The notes under the pieces are model-generated. The model saw only the letters and a program-made list of their open reading frames with translations, ran no database searches and was not told the origin of the DNA. From the NCBI RefSeq assembly GCF_007859915.1, contig NZ_SJPM01000018.1, positions 1 through 64,000 of the forward strand: DNA of 64,000 nt, read 5' to 3'. Origin of the DNA: Neorhodopirellula pilleata. Lineage in GTDB: Bacteria; Planctomycetota; Planctomycetia; Pirellulales; Pirellulaceae. Position 1 is the first letter of the stretch, and the number at the start of each line of letters is the position of its first letter. Below, one piece after another: positions 1 through 11,764 of this stretch. Made by a program: the position numbers and the translations under genes.

Positions 1-208
1 CACGTCTCGATGCCGCTGCGAAGTTGACTGCACAACGCACGTTGAAGCTGAAGTCTGGATGCTTCAGTACCGCCGCAACCACCCAGCCACGAAAGACCAC
101 CGCCATGCCAATTCGATCACGAACCAACACCAAGCCGAGCCCCCGGTCCGCCTGTAATGAACGCCAAAATTCAGCCAAAACCTCAGTCAGCAGTCGCTTG
201 ATTGAGGA
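1..208 (-). CDS. Partial unrecognised open frame running off the left edge
   Basis: This frame is open from a TAA at 211-209 to the window edge, so at most about 69 N-terminal residues are visible. It overlaps the end of the neighbouring MMPL-type gene (stop at 185-183) in another frame. The translation looks protein-like, with stretches such as LAEFWRSLQADRGLG and VFRGWVVAAVLKHP, but I do not recognise a family. No ATG lies where a coupled start would be expected; candidates are CTG at 190, TTG at 178 and ATG at 106. It could be the next gene of the operon or a displaced continuation of the transporter. Confidence 0.35.
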
Positions 209-1355
209 TTAGACAGATGTGAGACGCGTGCCTGGTTTGTAAGTTCATCAGCCATGTCCACAAAAAACTCAAGCGGTCGAATGTTTTCTGCTGTTTAAGT
301 TCAATCGATCGCCAAGCCAAGAAACCGGGCAACAAAACTAGCAAAACCGCGACCGTTACGATTACGCCGAACGCTGCGAAAACGCCAAATTCACGCACCG
401 CCGTCAATCCGCTAACGGCGAGTGATCCAAGACCGATGGCGGTGGTAGCCGAAGAGAGAACGCATGGTAGCCAGCCGATCTGAACGGCTTTTGCAACAGC
501 GGTCCGATCGCCTGTATCTCTAGCCGCGTCCATGGTGTAATTGACTAAATGAATCCCCCCTGCGATGGCAAGCACCTGGATCAGAGGGGGCAGTACGATC
601 ATCAATGCCGTCATCTCGCCGCCGCAATGATGCAGAATGGACAGTGCGATCACTTGGCTAATGCATGACGTCGCAAACACGAGAATGGCAGCATAGAACG
701 ATTCGAGACATAAAACACAGACGCACAGCACAATGATCGACGACATCGGTGCATAGCGACTCATCGTCATTTCGCTAGCTCGGTCGACGGCATACCCGTC
801 CATGATCGGCCCAGCCAAGTGCTGCTGCGAGTATTCGACTCCGGCGTATTTGGATGCCGCCAATTGAATTAGCGGGACTAGCCGTGTTCGTTGGCGCAGG
901 CCTTCTTTGTTGAATGCGATCACGACCGCGGTCGTGGAATCGTCAGGACCTAGCAGTGATCCTGAAAGTCTTTGGCGGGCTTGTTGATCGCTCAGCCTCG
1001 TCGCGAAGTTTGAGAAGGTTCGATGGAGATCACGCCCTGAAACAACTCGATGAAAAAGCCATTTTCCATTCTCAAAAAAGCATGGCGATTCCCGCAGCGC
1101 CTGACAGAATAGATCAAGACTTGAGTTCTCAAGCGTGCAGCCAGGCCAACTGATGACAACAACGTCCGCCGCTCCAAATCGCTCGCTGAACGCGTCGTAA
1201 TCGGCTCGTGGAGCGAAGCTGGCATCAACCCAGTCAAGCGGTGAATTTGCGGCTGGACGGAGTGCACCGATCGCTCCGACAGCAATCCACGGTGAAAGCA
1301 GTAACAGGTAGAGCAGAATAATTTTGAACCGTTGATGGTTCATTGTCTCATTCAT
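183..1355 (-). CDS. MMPL/RND-family transporter, half-size (390 aa)
   Basis: Inner-membrane transporter of the MMPL/RND superfamily, whose members move lipids or hydrophobic compounds. One transmembrane segment lies near residues 9-28, followed by an extracytoplasmic loop of about 175 residues. Five more segments follow between about 208 and 365, including the typical hydrophobic runs IVLPPLIQVLAIAGGIHLVNY and SSATTAIGLGSLAVSGL. This is one RND repeat of six helices; the family is usually twice as long with two repeats. The start at 1355 is set by a 4-base ATGA overlap with the upstream gene, which favours it over the in-frame ATG at 1343. It is the last certain gene of the operon. A half-size protein could work as a homodimer or be truncated. 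Superfamily assignment is firm; substrate is unknown. Confidence 0.75.
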   Translation of the reverse strand: MNETMNHQRFKIILLYLLLLSPWIAVGAIGALRPAANSPLDWVDASFAPRADYDAFSERFGAADVVVISWPGCTLENSSLDLFCQALRESPCFFENGKWLFHRVVSGRDLHRTFSNFATRLSDQQARQRLSGSLLGPDDSTTAVVIAFNKEGLRQRTRLVPLIQLAASKYAGVEYSQQHLAGPIMDGYAVDRASEMTMSRYAPMSSIIVLCVCVLCLESFYAAILVFATSCISQVIALSILHHCGGEMTALMIVLPPLIQVLAIAGGIHLVNYTMDAARDTGDRTAVAKAVQIGWLPCVLSSATTAIGLGSLAVSGLTAVREFGVFAAFGVIVTVAVLLVLLPGFLAWRSIELKQQKTFDRLSFLWTWLMNLQTRHASHICLILNQATAD

Positions 1356-2179
1356 GCTGCAACGCGAGGCCGTTGAGAGTGCTCCGAAGGAAGCGACGTC
1401 GGCGTCACTGGATCCGCAACGAGCGGCTTTTTGGCGAGTAGGCCGACCGTAACAAACGGATATCCTGGAACCGATCGCTCGTAAGCTTTGTACGGTTCGC
1501 CGATGAAATGTTCTAGTCGGCGATCCTTTAAGAAGCTCCCATAAAAAATATAGCTTGTCCAAATCGCGGTGAGAGCGGCGTGGTCGAGCGTCATCGTTGG
1601 CGTAAACCAGATCAGCCCAAGAAAGCTGAGGTAGACCGGATGTCGGATTAGCTTGTAGGCACCGCGCGGTCTAAACTCCCGTCGCGGTGGTTTCTGGTTT
1701 CGTAACCAATAGTAAAACGGCGTCCATCCGTTCTGGTATCCCAGGCCGGTCAGCGCTAACGAGTAAAAGAGCGCTACCCAGCAACCATAAAAACAAATGC
1801 GAACCAACGACTTCGTAAGGCCGCTCGCCTCCCAAAGAACGGTTTCGCTATTTCGCCATCCAAAGAACAACGCCAACAAGCTAACGCATGTAACAACGCA
1901 AAACGTGCTATCGTAGAATGCTTGGGGGATCCACCGTGTCAGATACTTGCGAGTCTTGGGTACCAGCATGACACTGTGTGAAAACGCGAAAAAGATCGCC
2001 AGTCCGCAGTCTCGCGCGATCCAATCGTCGTGAGACCGGCTGATCGCCCCGTCTCGAAGAAACCAAAACAGAAACCATACCGTAACGAGGAACAAGATCT
2101 GGTTACCGAATCCAAAACTCAACCCTGTCAAACGACGCAGCGTTGATGTGCTTGGCGAGTGTGAGATCGAGACATCCAT
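1352..2179 (-). CDS. ICMT/NnrU-like integral membrane methyltransferase (275 aa)
   Basis: Polytopic membrane protein of the isoprenylcysteine carboxyl methyltransferase-like group, which uses S-adenosylmethionine to methylate membrane-embedded substrates. About five hydrophobic segments precede a C-terminal signature: LIRHPVYLSFLG, then an E-x-x-FIGEPYKAYERSVPGYPF block. The arginine-histidine-proline-tyrosine and glutamate-tyrosine elements match the SAM-binding region of that family. The ATG at 2179 is chosen because a GGAG lies about nine bases upstream; an open frame extends to 2272 but overlaps the preceding gene. Its stop overlaps the start of the MMPL-type gene (ATGA), implying translational coupling. 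The substrate is not shown by sequence; operon partners suggest an isoprenoid lipid. Confidence 0.7.
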   Translation of the reverse strand: MDVSISHSPSTSTLRRLTGLSFGFGNQILFLVTVWFLFWFLRDGAISRSHDDWIARDCGLAIFFAFSHSVMLVPKTRKYLTRWIPQAFYDSTFCVVTCVSLLALFFGWRNSETVLWEASGLTKSLVRICFYGCWVALFYSLALTGLGYQNGWTPFYYWLRNQKPPRREFRPRGAYKLIRHPVYLSFLGLIWFTPTMTLDHAALTAIWTSYIFYGSFLKDRRLEHFIGEPYKAYERSVPGYPFVTVGLLAKKPLVADPVTPTSLPSEHSQRPRVAA

Positions 2180-2207
2180 TGTATTGTTCTCCAAGACGCG
2201 TTCGGCG

Positions 2208-3050
2208 TTACGATAGTTTAGGTTTTTCGGCGACGATCGCCCCGTACTGCATCGCGCCGCTTCGGTACGCATTGAGTAGCGCTTCGAACCCGTCGATAAA
2301 ATCGACTTGTTCTTTGTCGAGGATCTTAGCGAGATGTCGTACGCCGCTTCGATCCACCCGTTGCTTGCAAATTTCCCAAGTACGGGTGACTCTCTCAGTC
2401 CAGTCGACGTTGTGGACGATTTTCATTCCGTGGTCAGTCATCCATGCGGCATAGTCGTCGCGAGTCGCCAAAGAAGGGCACACAAATCGCTCGCAAACTT
2501 CTTCGCATTGTCGGCGATGGTCTTCGCGCGTCGTGTCTTCGCCTTCGAACCAGACGCAGATCGCCATGCGGCCACCGGGCCGAAGCCACTGATAAGCTTT
2601 GCGAAAAAAATCAGGTTTTTCAAAAAGATGTTCGGTGCATTCCACACTCCACATCACATCAAAGCTTCCGTCTGAAAAGACAACTTTCTCGGCATCCTCG
2701 GCCAAAAACCGCGTACGCTTGCCGACTCGGTGAACCTTCGATGAAACGGCAGCCCAGCGGCGTTGCAGCGGACTGAGCGTCACCCCGGTGACATCGCACC
2801 CTCGCATCTTTGCTAAACGGATCGACGATCCGCCCATCCCGCAACCGATATCGACAACTTTGTCGTCGGCGGAAATGCCGGCAAGATCGGCCAGCGTGTC
2901 GGTTAAATTGCATTGAGCTTCATAGGGCGACTCGTCCCCGCTCCACAAGCCATGGTGGATATGAGGTCCCCAAAGCAAACGATAGAACAGCGTGCCGAGT
3001 TGGTAGTGGCTGCGTATGGAGCTTTTCTGTACTCCGTCGATCGAGATCAT
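2208..3050 (-). CDS. Class I SAM methyltransferase, tocopherol/sterol methyltransferase-like (280 aa)
   Basis: Soluble S-adenosylmethionine-dependent methyltransferase. SAM motif I is VVDIGCGMGGSSIRLA at about residues 65-80, followed by GVTLSPLQ, a SFDVMWSVECTEHL block and LRPGGRM, the order seen in gamma-tocopherol, sterol C-24 and cyclopropane-type methyltransferases. The N-terminal HYQLGTLFYRLLWGPHIHHGLW segment also fits that group, which acts on lipid-like substrates. It starts 20 bases after the YceI gene and ends 28 bases before the ICMT-like gene, so it is clearly in the operon. The group is well supported; the actual substrate is inferred from context. Confidence 0.8.
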   Translation of the reverse strand: MISIDGVQKSSIRSHYQLGTLFYRLLWGPHIHHGLWSGDESPYEAQCNLTDTLADLAGISADDKVVDIGCGMGGSSIRLAKMRGCDVTGVTLSPLQRRWAAVSSKVHRVGKRTRFLAEDAEKVVFSDGSFDVMWSVECTEHLFEKPDFFRKAYQWLRPGGRMAICVWFEGEDTTREDHRRQCEEVCERFVCPSLATRDDYAAWMTDHGMKIVHNVDWTERVTRTWEICKQRVDRSGVRHLAKILDKEQVDFIDGFEALLNAYRSGAMQYGAIVAEKPKLS

Positions 3051-3070
3051 GTTGTTGCCGCAAAGATTGA

Positions 3071-3796
3071 TTATTGACGCGTTGGAATGTCGGACATCGC
3101 GACGTTAGCTGTCGGAGCGACAAACAGATCGCCGTAAATCTTCAATGAGTCAGCTACACCGATTGCACCGAAGGCTTTCGAGTACGGAGTGATGCCGAAC
3201 GACGTTTGTTTGATGACAAAGTTACCACGAACGTGCAACCAACCACGGGTCTGCTCGACTTCGACGCTGAACTCCAGCGGATGCGTCGTGCCGTGTAGTG
3301 TGAAGTTGCCCTTGAGTTCGTAGATGGGCAATCCGTCCGAACCGGTTTGGCCGGTAGCGATTGCCGAAGCGACATCGAAAGTCGCAGTGGGATATTGAGC
3401 AACATTTAAGATCGCCGATCCCTTCATATTGTTGTTTACCGCCGAGCGTGTTCCCTCGTCGGTCGTTCCTTGCAGGCCGACGTACTTACGGGCAGCTTGC
3501 GTGTCGGCGTCGAAGGAGTTCATGTCGAAGGTGAGTTTTCCTGCATTCTGGTCCGCCCCCAACTCCAGTCTGCTGGACAACAACTTCGCTTCGACGCCGT
3601 GTTGGTGGCCGAGTCCTGTTTTATCAACGAAAACATAAACACGACTCGCTTGAGTCTGGACATCGCCCGGCTTGTAAGAAGGCGTGGTTGCGTCCTGGGA
3701 ACAAGCGACGGGAGCGATGCTAGCGAAGATGATCCACGCCAACGCGATCGTTGCCACCACGTTGATCCGAGTGAGATAAGAATGGGAGCAACGCAT
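3071..3796 (-). CDS. YceI family periplasmic lipid-binding protein (241 aa)
   Basis: Secreted protein of the YceI family, lipocalin-like barrels that bind long polyisoprenoid chains. A signal peptide (VVATIALAWIIFASIAPVACSQ) precedes a mature domain with family features such as LTFDMNSFDADT, KYPT-like AQYPTATFDV, YELKGNFTLHGTTHPLEF and a C-terminal FGITPYSKAFGAIGVADSLKIYGDLF. The ATG at 3796 has an AAGGA about ten bases upstream and gives a proper signal peptide; the open frame continues to 3964 without a better start. It is the promoter-proximal gene of the operon with two methyltransferases and the MMPL-type transporter. Confidence 0.85.
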   Translation of the reverse strand: MRCSHSYLTRINVVATIALAWIIFASIAPVACSQDATTPSYKPGDVQTQASRVYVFVDKTGLGHQHGVEAKLLSSRLELGADQNAGKLTFDMNSFDADTQAARKYVGLQGTTDEGTRSAVNNNMKGSAILNVAQYPTATFDVASAIATGQTGSDGLPIYELKGNFTLHGTTHPLEFSVEVEQTRGWLHVRGNFVIKQTSFGITPYSKAFGAIGVADSLKIYGDLFVAPTANVAMSDIPTRQ

Positions 3797-4411: not shown

Positions 4412-4927
4412 ATGATACGTAAGTTTTCTATCTACACTGTTTCCGCCTGTTCGATAATGTTCTTGTTTGCTGTTGTGGCTAAACGTGTCGATGCACAGCA
4501 AGAAATCGAAAAGCGATTCGAGCAACTCGATGACAATCGCGATGGAAAAGTCACGCCGGATGAGTTGCGTCAGCCGGCTATTTTCAAAGCCCTCGACATG
4601 GATGGCAACGGCGAGATCACAAAAGAAGAAGCCACGCGAGCTGCCTTGCGCGGTCGATTGAAAAATGCAATTGGCGGAGCCATGGGAAGGAACAACTCGA
4701 ACGACGAGGTTGTTCCAGCCGAGCCAGCAAAGTCACTTGACGCTCCGGTTCGCCAAGGACCGAAGCTGATCACTCCCGGAGAGCACGGCATCGGTCGCTT
4801 CGTCCCTGACTTCGAATTTGCGGATCTTGAGGGGGTAACGAAGAAGCTTCACGGCGACTCCAAAAGCGAACTGACAGTCATCGCGTTTAATCGAGACGGG
4901 CAAAACGATGTTAGGGCAGAAAAATGA
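4412..4927 (+). pseudogene. Truncated EF-hand protein that has lost its thioredoxin-like domain (171 aa)
   Basis: A signal peptide (residues 1-28) precedes two calcium-binding EF-hand loops, DDNRDGKVTPDE and DMDGNGEITKEE, each with acidic residues at the expected positions. The C-terminal part, PGEHGIGRFVPDFEFADLEG...ELTVIAF, resembles the first strands of a redoxin domain, but the frame then ends with [12 protein letters not shown] before any CxxC motif. The ending is encoded by a repeat (4898-4926). The open frame could extend up to 4349, but the ATG at 4412 gives the signal peptide. It may still be made as a shortened calcium-binding protein; I infer truncation by the repeat. Confidence 0.55.
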
Positions 4928-5002
4928 AATCCAGCAAACAGGAATCAAGAATGAATCGAATGTTGTCAATCATCTTTATCTTTTTGCCCACCCATCTTTT
5001 TA
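4898..5002. repeat. Inverted oligomer repeat, GGGCAAAAGGATGG type, copy 2
   Basis: GGGCAAAACGATGTTAGGGC, then AGAAAAATG (4898-4926) resembles the left part of the repeat at 4291-4390, and AATCATCTTTATC followed by TTTTTGCCCACCCATC (4968-4997) resembles its right part. The copy spans the end of the EF-hand frame and the signal peptide of the broken sulfatase. Confidence 0.45.
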
Positions 5003-5244
5003 CTTTATCTCTTGTCGGCTTTGTGACTGCCGCTGAGAAACCCAACATCATCATCTTCTTCGCGGACGACCTTGGTTACGCTGATATTGGTGTCTACGGA
5101 TGCAAAGATATTCCAACACCTCACGTTGATGCGATCGCCAACAGCGGCGTGCGGTTCACCGACGGCTACGCGACGCATCCGGTCTGCTCCCCCTCGCGTG
5201 CCGACTTGATGAGCGGGATGTACCAGCATCGCTTTGCCGGGTAG
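4924..5244 (+). pseudogene. Sulfatase N-terminal fragment (106 aa)
   Basis: The translation has a signal peptide and the start of a type I sulfatase: [20 protein letters not shown] with the metal-binding aspartates, then [15 protein letters not shown] holding the formylglycine signature C-S-P-S-R. It stops after MYQHRFAG, whereas intact enzymes have about 450-500 residues. The stop comes just before a palindrome at 5252-5292, and no continuation is visible in another frame. The fragment overlaps the EF-hand stop by four bases (ATGA); ATG at 4951 is an alternative start. It retains the residues needed for maturation but cannot fold as a complete sulfatase. Confidence 0.7.
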
Positions 5245-10639: not shown

Positions 10640-11764
10640 ATGATCAAAACGTATCACCTGTTGTTCGCTTCCGTAGTCGTGATCTTCATCACGCCAATCG
10701 GGCAAGCGAACGCCGAACCGCATGCGCGTCCATTCGATGCCGCCGGTTCACCGCCGTTCGTTCGACTCGACGACGGGCCCGGCATGAATCCGCCGCTCGA
10801 TGCCAATGGTAATTTTCTCGTCGGTCCGGAGTACTTGCCGGCTCCAGAACTCTCTGTCGTCGCTGGTGTTCCGAAGGGCCGTATTGAGCAGTTCACGATC
10901 GATTCGAAGGACACCGAGCTCTTCAATCCAGGAATTGCTCGCGAAGTCTTCGGTACCATTGATCCCAACAATCCCAAGACCTTGATCGTCGATACGCATG
11001 AGATCGACTACACGCGTCAGATCACCGTTTACGTGCCTGCGCAGTATGTGCCCGGCGGAGAGGCTCCTTTCATGGTCTGTCACGATGGTCCCAAAGGACG
11101 TCCCGACATGACGCTTCCTCGCATCCTGGACAACCTGATCGCTCAAGGTCGCGTTCCGCCACTGATTGCCATCATGGTCGCCAACGGCGGTGGCGATGCG
11201 CAGGGTCACCAGCGGGGGAAAGAGTACGACACGATGTCCAGCATGCTTGCCGATTACATCGAAGCTGAGGTACTACCAAGGGTCGAAAAACAATGTAACG
11301 TCAAGCTAACCAAAGACCCCGACGGTCGTGCCACGATGGGGAACAGCTCAGGCGGATCAGCCGCATTGATCATGGCTTGGTATCGCACGGATTTGTATCA
11401 TCGCGTGCTGACAACATCGGGCACGTTCGTGAACCAGCAGTGGCCCTTCAATCCCGAGACGCCCGACGGAGCCTGGGGCTTCCACAACAAGCTGATCCCT
11501 GAAACACCCAAAAAGCCCATTCGATTGTTCATGGCCGTTGGAGACCGTGATAACTACAACCCGAACGTGATGCGTGACGGCATGCACGACTGGGTCGAGG
11601 CCAACCATCGCATGGCAAAGGTGCTCCAAGCCAAAGGTTATGAGTATCAATATCTGTATTGTCAAAACTCCGGCCACGGAGTGCGAAACGCGAAAGAACA
11701 GTTCCTACCTCACGCGATCGAATGGGTATGGCACGGTTACCAAGCGAAGTCGAGTTCGCAATAA
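10640..11764 (+). CDS. Secreted esterase, enterochelin/feruloyl-esterase-like alpha/beta hydrolase (374 aa)
   Basis: Secreted serine hydrolase of the esterase-D-like group that includes feruloyl and acetyl-xylan esterases. A signal peptide ends at GQANAEP. The nucleophile is in MGNSSGGSAAL (G-x-S-x-G), MVANGGGDA and VYVPAQYVPGGEAPFMV mark the family core, and the histidine lies in NSGHGVRNAKEQ near the C terminus. It lies 25 bases after the sialate-O-acetylesterase-like gene in the same direction, so the two are probably co-transcribed. Its substrate is likely an ester decoration on a polysaccharide (inference). Confidence 0.85.
   Translation: MIKTYHLLFASVVVIFITPIGQANAEPHARPFDAAGSPPFVRLDDGPGMNPPLDANGNFLVGPEYLPAPELSVVAGVPKGRIEQFTIDSKDTELFNPGIAREVFGTIDPNNPKTLIVDTHEIDYTRQITVYVPAQYVPGGEAPFMVCHDGPKGRPDMTLPRILDNLIAQGRVPPLIAIMVANGGGDAQGHQRGKEYDTMSSMLADYIEAEVLPRVEKQCNVKLTKDPDGRATMGNSSGGSAALIMAWYRTDLYHRVLTTSGTFVNQQWPFNPETPDGAWGFHNKLIPETPKKPIRLFMAVGDRDNYNPNVMRDGMHDWVEANHRMAKVLQAKGYEYQYLYCQNSGHGVRNAKEQFLPHAIEWVWHGYQAKSSSQ

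Follow-up and report, generated by a model that had tools for sequence, protein, structure and literature searches.

We analyzed a block of four genes at the start of a 64,000-nucleotide stretch (the window) of the Neorhodopirellula pilleata genome, located on contig C18 (NZ_SJPM01000018.1, positions 1 to 64,000). Read from right to left, the block encodes a YceI-family protein, a soluble class I S-adenosylmethionine (SAM) methyltransferase (MT), a membrane methyltransferase resembling isoprenylcysteine carboxyl methyltransferase (ICMT), and an MMPL transporter (Table 1). The genes are separated by gaps of 20 and 28 bp, followed by a 4-bp overlap. An earlier reading of the window made without database searches (the sequence-only reading) had placed four minus-strand genes with an ATGA overlap at 183-3796, which both the coordinates and the sequence bear out. 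Pfam profiles back the identities of YceI, MT, and MMPL, while the ICMT-like protein has sub-cut-off matches only: its single Pfam match is NnrU (PF07298), just below the cut-off (24.5 versus 24.7), and its single NCBIfam match is MddA.

Table 1. Features of the four-gene block and of the adjoining insertion sequence, in window coordinates.
Feature	Position	Strand	Details
YceI-family protein gene	3071..3796	-	241 aa; PF04264 69.1 bits (cut-off 23.7); signal-like N terminus, by reading only
MT, soluble class I SAM methyltransferase	2208..3050	-	280 aa; Methyltransf_11 PF08241 67.5 bits
Predicted ICMT-superfamily membrane methyltransferase	1352..2179	-	275 aa; NF045656 107.8 bits (cut-off 270)
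MMPL transporter gene, N-terminal half	183..1355	-	390 aa; PF03176 47.5 bits
ATGA overlap, ICMT-like stop and MMPL start	1352..1355	-	read from sequence
Insertion-sequence end, multi-copy, DDE transposase PF13701	1..207		contig C18 begins inside the element at window base 1
13-bp terminal inverted repeat of the insertion sequence	195..207		flank comparison
6-bp target-site duplication	208..213		TCTAAT on minus strand; repeated beside the C-terminal MMPL half on G000:C1

The MMPL gene is cut in two by an insertion sequence, so the earlier assignment of the fourth gene to the MMPL transporters was right about the family, but only the N-terminal half lies here. The encoded protein is far shorter than the 765 to 795 aa of MMPLs at loci L061, L062, L064, L072, L106, and L111, with one of the two halves present, and it has 42-52% identity to the N-terminal halves of 769- to 792-aa MMPLs (L061, L062, L064, and L072). 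MMPL-derived sequence spans 208-1355; positions 183-207 belong to the insertion sequence, and the last seven codons lie wholly inside the element. We found the C-terminal half on contig C1 of the same genome (L088 9186-10365, equal to G000:C1:640185-641364), where the element's other end is followed by TCTAAT and this half of the gene. Window bases 1-127 are identical to part of the C1 element encoding the transposase. These 127 bases recur at six further sites beyond the window and C1, and the element's other end at eight sites beyond C1, which points to a multi-copy insertion sequence collapsed in the assembly. When the two MMPL flanks were joined by script, they gave a single open frame of 773 codons; along most of it, the identity to three full-length MMPLs is 49-57%. 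No further damage beyond the insertion was seen in this frame. A genuinely half-size MMPL was rejected, because the other half has been located and the insertion boundary is clear.

An assembly artefact in an otherwise whole gene is very unlikely. In favor of an artefact, the assembly has collapsed the repeated element, and a different flank adjoins it at the far side on C1. Against it, both MMPL flanks show the inverted repeat of the element together with the TCTAAT duplication, a word absent from three other left and seven other right flanks among those listed. Moreover, repeat collapse may misplace flanks but does not create an insertion boundary inside a gene. Because the gene is cut, export by this MMPL pump has probably been lost in this genome. 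Near position 638424 of G000:C1, the element's far side is joined to sequence of a DUF1559 gene, and the inverted repeat is lacking there; this junction is either a truncated element copy or a false assembly join.

Using MT and ICMT each as a query against 60 genomes, the present one among them, we found the two genes side by side in several relatives. Reading of the neighborhoods showed three recurrent partners, a type III polyketide synthase (PKS), a flavin adenine dinucleotide (FAD) oxidoreductase, and a further methyltransferase (MT2), whose Pfam domains are chalcone/stilbene synthase, FAD_binding_3, and Methyltransf_25, respectively. Named genomes were scanned with MT alone, and the best 80 of 196 stretches encoding MT relatives formed the locus set, over which we mapped seven home-made profiles at a 60-bit threshold as the basis of the gene rates. 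Many of the 80 stretches are short or ended by contig ends; 34 extend for 9 kb or more beyond MT in both directions and are termed well flanked. Counts over 80 and over 34 use L102-L181 only, where L163 and L167 are one strain; the label pairs L060/L102, L061/L113, L063/L125, and L067/L178 each denote the same locus.

The proposed four-gene order exceeds chance and is co-conserved in related genomes, with YceI, MT, ICMT, and MMPL adjacent and in this order at 31 of the 80 loci and YceI directly upstream of MT at 59. Across all 80, the profiles matched YceI at 61 loci, ICMT at 67, MMPL at 47, PKS at 50, the oxidoreductase at 44, and MT2 at 45. The well-flanked loci gave 27, 26, 16, 31, 28, and 28 of 34, respectively. 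PKS lies within 10 kb of MT at 31 of these 34; the chance for a random gene is about 0.3%, a rough figure that assumes 1.1 PKS genes in 7 Mb. At least one of the three partners is present at 32 of the 34 (L143 by a cut MT2 alone, at 105 bits), and all seven genes at 15. Single seven-gene runs on one strand occur at L109, L113, L114, and L116. Aeoliella straminimaris (L159) also has the seven genes together, and Rhodopirellula sp. JC639 (L106) has a five-gene form. One of the 50 loci with a PKS match in the stretch, L140, reaches only 138 bits, and four others have the oxidoreductase and/or MT2 without PKS (L115, L143, L149, and L180). For the remaining 26, a genome-wide search found a PKS match in every genome, 25 at E < 1e-36 and one partial (G074, 2.8e-16). 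At L072 (G031:C1:5957500-5974000), YceI, ICMT, and MMPL occur without an MT between them, and a PKS match lies elsewhere in that genome.

The association extends across the class. In a sample of 198 evenly drawn genomes, this one included, with PKS called at E 1e-45 and genomes counted by eye, MT is patchy (23 genomes) and PKS is found in 128. PKS is present in 22 of the 23 genomes with MT versus 106 of the 175 without (Fisher p = 0.0004), and leaving this genome out changes the former to 21 of 22 (p = 0.0007). In 16 of the 22 genomes having both, MT and PKS lie at most 10 kb apart on one contig, as read by eye. A smaller comparison, also leaving this genome out, gave PKS in 12 of 13 genomes with MT, two of which (G031 and G036) have only distant MT matches, versus 20 of 46 without (p = 0.0017). 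Because PKS is common without MT but MT is rarely found without PKS, the block is best viewed as an optional arm.

A planctomycetal operon of these three kinds of gene, methyltransferase, FAD oxidoreductase, and type III PKS, has been described for alkylresorcinol formation (Milke et al. 2024, PMC10896814). Four of six planctomycetal PKSs gave pentadecyl- and/or heptadecylresorcinols in Corynebacterium glutamicum, those of G. maris, R. baltica, S. maiorica, and 'S. ferox', while those of P. limnophila and A. californiensis did not (PMC10896814). With the methyltransferase and oxidoreductase of G. maris, a single methyl group was introduced, probably by C-methylation (PMC10896814). The same source calls the role of planctomycetal alkylresorcinols elusive and the C. 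glutamicum products not necessarily final. Based on the usual partners in relatives, by both PKS linkage and co-occurrence, we consider it likely that the four-gene block serves as the tailoring and export arm of a cluster for alkylresorcinols, hierridin-like phenolic lipids, in planctomycetes; here the arm is detached and its export probably lost.

Several observations weigh against this assignment. Two well-flanked loci, L102 (Aporhodopirellula aestuarii) and L155, have none of the three partners within 10 kb, and MMPL is present at only 16 of the 34. In the class sample, G090 has MT without PKS at E 1e-45 (one of the 23 MT genomes), and PKS is common without MT; G050 has MT with a PKS match of only 1.1e-5. 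The nearest sequence and fold matches of MT are sugar and natural-product methyltransferases, and co-expression of two 'S. ferox' methyltransferases gave no further product in the experiments that PMC10896814 describes. In the genome studied here, no PKS adjoins the block, and in a tree of 79 PKS rows its own PKS falls in a fully supported 13-row clade (11 of 12 genus relatives plus G023), none of them block-adjacent.

This PKS is the only match in the genome and sits on contig C10 rather than C18, in an operon of methyltransferase, oxidoreductase, and PKS. For the nearest blocks, whether intact or partial (L103-L106 and L109; titled Stieleria, Rhodopirellula, or TBK1r), the linked PKSs fall within another supported clade. 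With the sole PKS on C10 and in a different clade, the block here is detached from its usual PKS lineage. Block labels on the tree, some of them set by hand from the MT and ICMT searches, require 8 changes (at least 5 forced) versus a mean of 19.4 in shuffles. The linkage is therefore partly inherited, yet was gained or lost several times.

In this genome, the whole block may be a dead remnant of a lost cluster that makes nothing, a possibility we find somewhat doubtful and one compatible with the assignment of the block family to alkylresorcinol clusters. MMPL is split, the genome has no block-type PKS, and relatives display stepwise loss: G009 (same contig as L102) retains MT with YceI and ICMT fragments, G025 has MT alone, L103 has YceI fragments with MT and PKS, and in L105 an MMPL tail separates MT from PKS. 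On the other side, YceI, MT, and ICMT are uninterrupted here, and PKS is kept elsewhere in the genomes of all 26 loci without partners in the stretch, in one of them weakly. The nonsynonymous divergence (dN) of MT from relatives is low, at 0.15-0.19, against near-saturated synonymous sites; this saturation makes the comparison weak support for selection, and it speaks for the past only. The L105 tail (10863-10991), a stub of the MMPL C terminus, points to an origin of that two-gene form by deletion. A two-gene methyltransferase-PKS operon has been reported for Stieleria maiorica (PMC10896814), and it may likewise be the deletion product of a larger cluster.

The sequence-only reading had proposed a different substrate, a lipid with an isoprenoid part that is methylated twice and exported. 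In such a scheme, a polyprenyl lipid bound by YceI would be methylated by both MT and the ICMT-like enzyme and exported by MMPL. A role in the metabolism, transport, or storage of isoprenoid quinones has indeed been suggested for YceI-like proteins (PMC5329642), MT resembles geranyl-diphosphate C-methyltransferase (NF041943), and one cyanobacterial hierridin-like cluster has a prenyltransferase (PMC8086630). However, MT usually has a type III PKS as its partner, it scores 75.4 bits on NF041943 where the cut-off is 400, and no prenyltransferase or terpene synthase was recognized among the 15 neighbor clusters listed, which were judged by reading rather than by profile. Nor is YceI isoprenoid-specific: HP1286, described as a YceI homologue, has a differing cavity and may accept fatty acids or amides (PMC5329642). 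We thus regard an isoprenoid-lipid pathway as quite unlikely. Double methylation and export of a lipid still fit the families (two methyltransferases, a lipid-binding protein, and a lipid-type exporter), but the isoprenoid part is not supported, the usual genomic partners being a type III PKS together with an FAD oxidoreductase and a third methyltransferase.

The AlphaFold2 model of MT (mean predicted local distance difference test [pLDDT] score, 90.8) has AtmM, RebM, TleD, MitM, and SpnF as the closest solved folds, then geranyl-diphosphate C-methyltransferase (fold rank 18). By model and by profile alike, MT groups with AtmM, RebM, TleD, MitM, and geranyl-diphosphate methyltransferase; the MT alignments had 12 rows (A1) and 31 rows (A3). 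Because the nearest matches span sugar and natural-product methyltransferases, they do not divide O-methylation from C-methylation by this enzyme.

The motifs RHPxY and KDxR of the ICMT-like protein do not vary across 36 aligned rows, and the AlphaFold2 model of the protein is of similar quality (mean pLDDT, 91.0). Foldseek matches to the model were weak (best, steroid 5-alpha-reductase, E 0.075; ICMT, E 0.23), with none at E 0.001, and a PDB sequence search with the profile of the protein gave no match up to E 0.1. Membership in the ICMT superfamily is predicted from the sub-cut-off MddA profile and the motifs. As MddA is the sole NCBIfam match and the closest curated family, we weighed whether the protein is itself MddA, methylating methanethiol or sulfide to dimethyl sulfide. 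Five block proteins, this one included, score 97-108 bits on NF045656 (the four others 97-106), far below the cut-off, whereas six paralogues elsewhere in relatives score 230-348, four of the six above it. Four aligned paralogues have EER where the block proteins have KDR, and the PKS linkage of the block also speaks against this identity, which we consider extremely unlikely. MddA was rejected on the profile scores and the EER/KDR motif. The MddA-type proteins lie apart from the block in several planctomycetes, at L049-L054 (G028, G026, G030, G053, G056, and G016).

Taken as the tailoring and export arm of an alkylresorcinol cluster, the block would work as follows. The type III PKS would form 5-alkylresorcinols from fatty acyl coenzyme A (acyl-CoA) and malonyl-CoA, as published for relatives. 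MT and the ICMT-like enzyme would then each add one methyl group to the phenolic head. The ICMT-like enzyme may do so by O-methylation, a guess by analogy with SrsB of Streptomyces griseus, which reportedly acts on a hydroxyl. As families, YceI proteins are amphiphile binders and MMPL proteins are lipid exporters; YceI would accordingly be a periplasmic carrier binding the phenolic lipid, and MMPL would presumably move this lipid outward. In this genome, YceI, MT, and ICMT stay open while MMPL is cut.

More tentatively, with the odds slightly against it, some planctomycetes may use a seven-gene system of PKS, oxidoreductase, three methyltransferases, YceI carrier, and MMPL pump to make, methylate, and export a phenolic lipid to the envelope or surface, with two-gene MT-PKS forms such as L105 as reduced versions. 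Such a system would be a distant functional parallel to the MMPL-exported lipids of mycobacteria. From the recurrence of a carrier-and-pump arm, one would predict that some species methylate the product further and move it out of the cytoplasm. This prediction guides chemists to look in the envelope and medium besides cell extracts, and it suggests which further genes to co-express.

Two other features were observed. A BlaI-like repressor and an M56 (BlaR1-like) protein, both named by resemblance, are paired in 7 of 92 stretches (L062, L065, L118, L129, L135, L142, and L174), a set in which at least four loci occur twice, and the pair often sits between the PKS and block arms. The pair is curious because loss of srsA in S. 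griseus leads to higher beta-lactam sensitivity (PMC10896814). In the window, positions 4924-5244 hold a 106-aa open reading frame resembling the start of a sulfatase, followed by a stop, possibly a truncated gene.

The proposed arm has likenesses to several known systems. The srsABC operon of S. griseus pairs an alkylresorcinol synthase with SrsB, annotated as an isoprenylcysteine carboxyl methyltransferase, which modifies alkylresorcinols together with SrsC (PMC6669644). Here the likeness is by description, not by sequence, and srsABC differs in having three genes only; the passages of PMC6669644 name neither YceI nor MMPL nor a second soluble methyltransferase. The cyanobacterial hierridin genes hidABC share the core of methyltransferase, oxidoreductase, and PKS (PMC10896814 and PMC8086630), but YceI, MMPL, and isoprenylcysteine do not appear in PMC8086630. 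That source does mention additional methyltransferases for some hierridin-like clusters and, for other type III PKS clusters, resistance-nodulation-division (RND) transporters.

The sequence-only reading knew of no characterized pathway with exactly this gene set. We found no literature naming the YceI-MT-ICMT-MMPL arm, although papers using other protein names would be missed, and to that extent the statement stands. 'S. ferox' comes nearest, having one operon in which genes for a lipoprotein, a lipid/isoprenoid-binding protein, and two methyltransferases precede the PKS gene (PMC10896814). The partner operon, however, has been characterized, so in the literature searched the core is already published and the four-gene arm is known only in part, for 'S. 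ferox'. The operon of Milke et al. differs from the full system in having three genes, and the main text of PMC10896814 does not contain the words YceI, MMPL, or isoprenylcysteine. Most well-flanked loci have this operon close to the block, and the genome studied here carries a three-gene version of it on C10.

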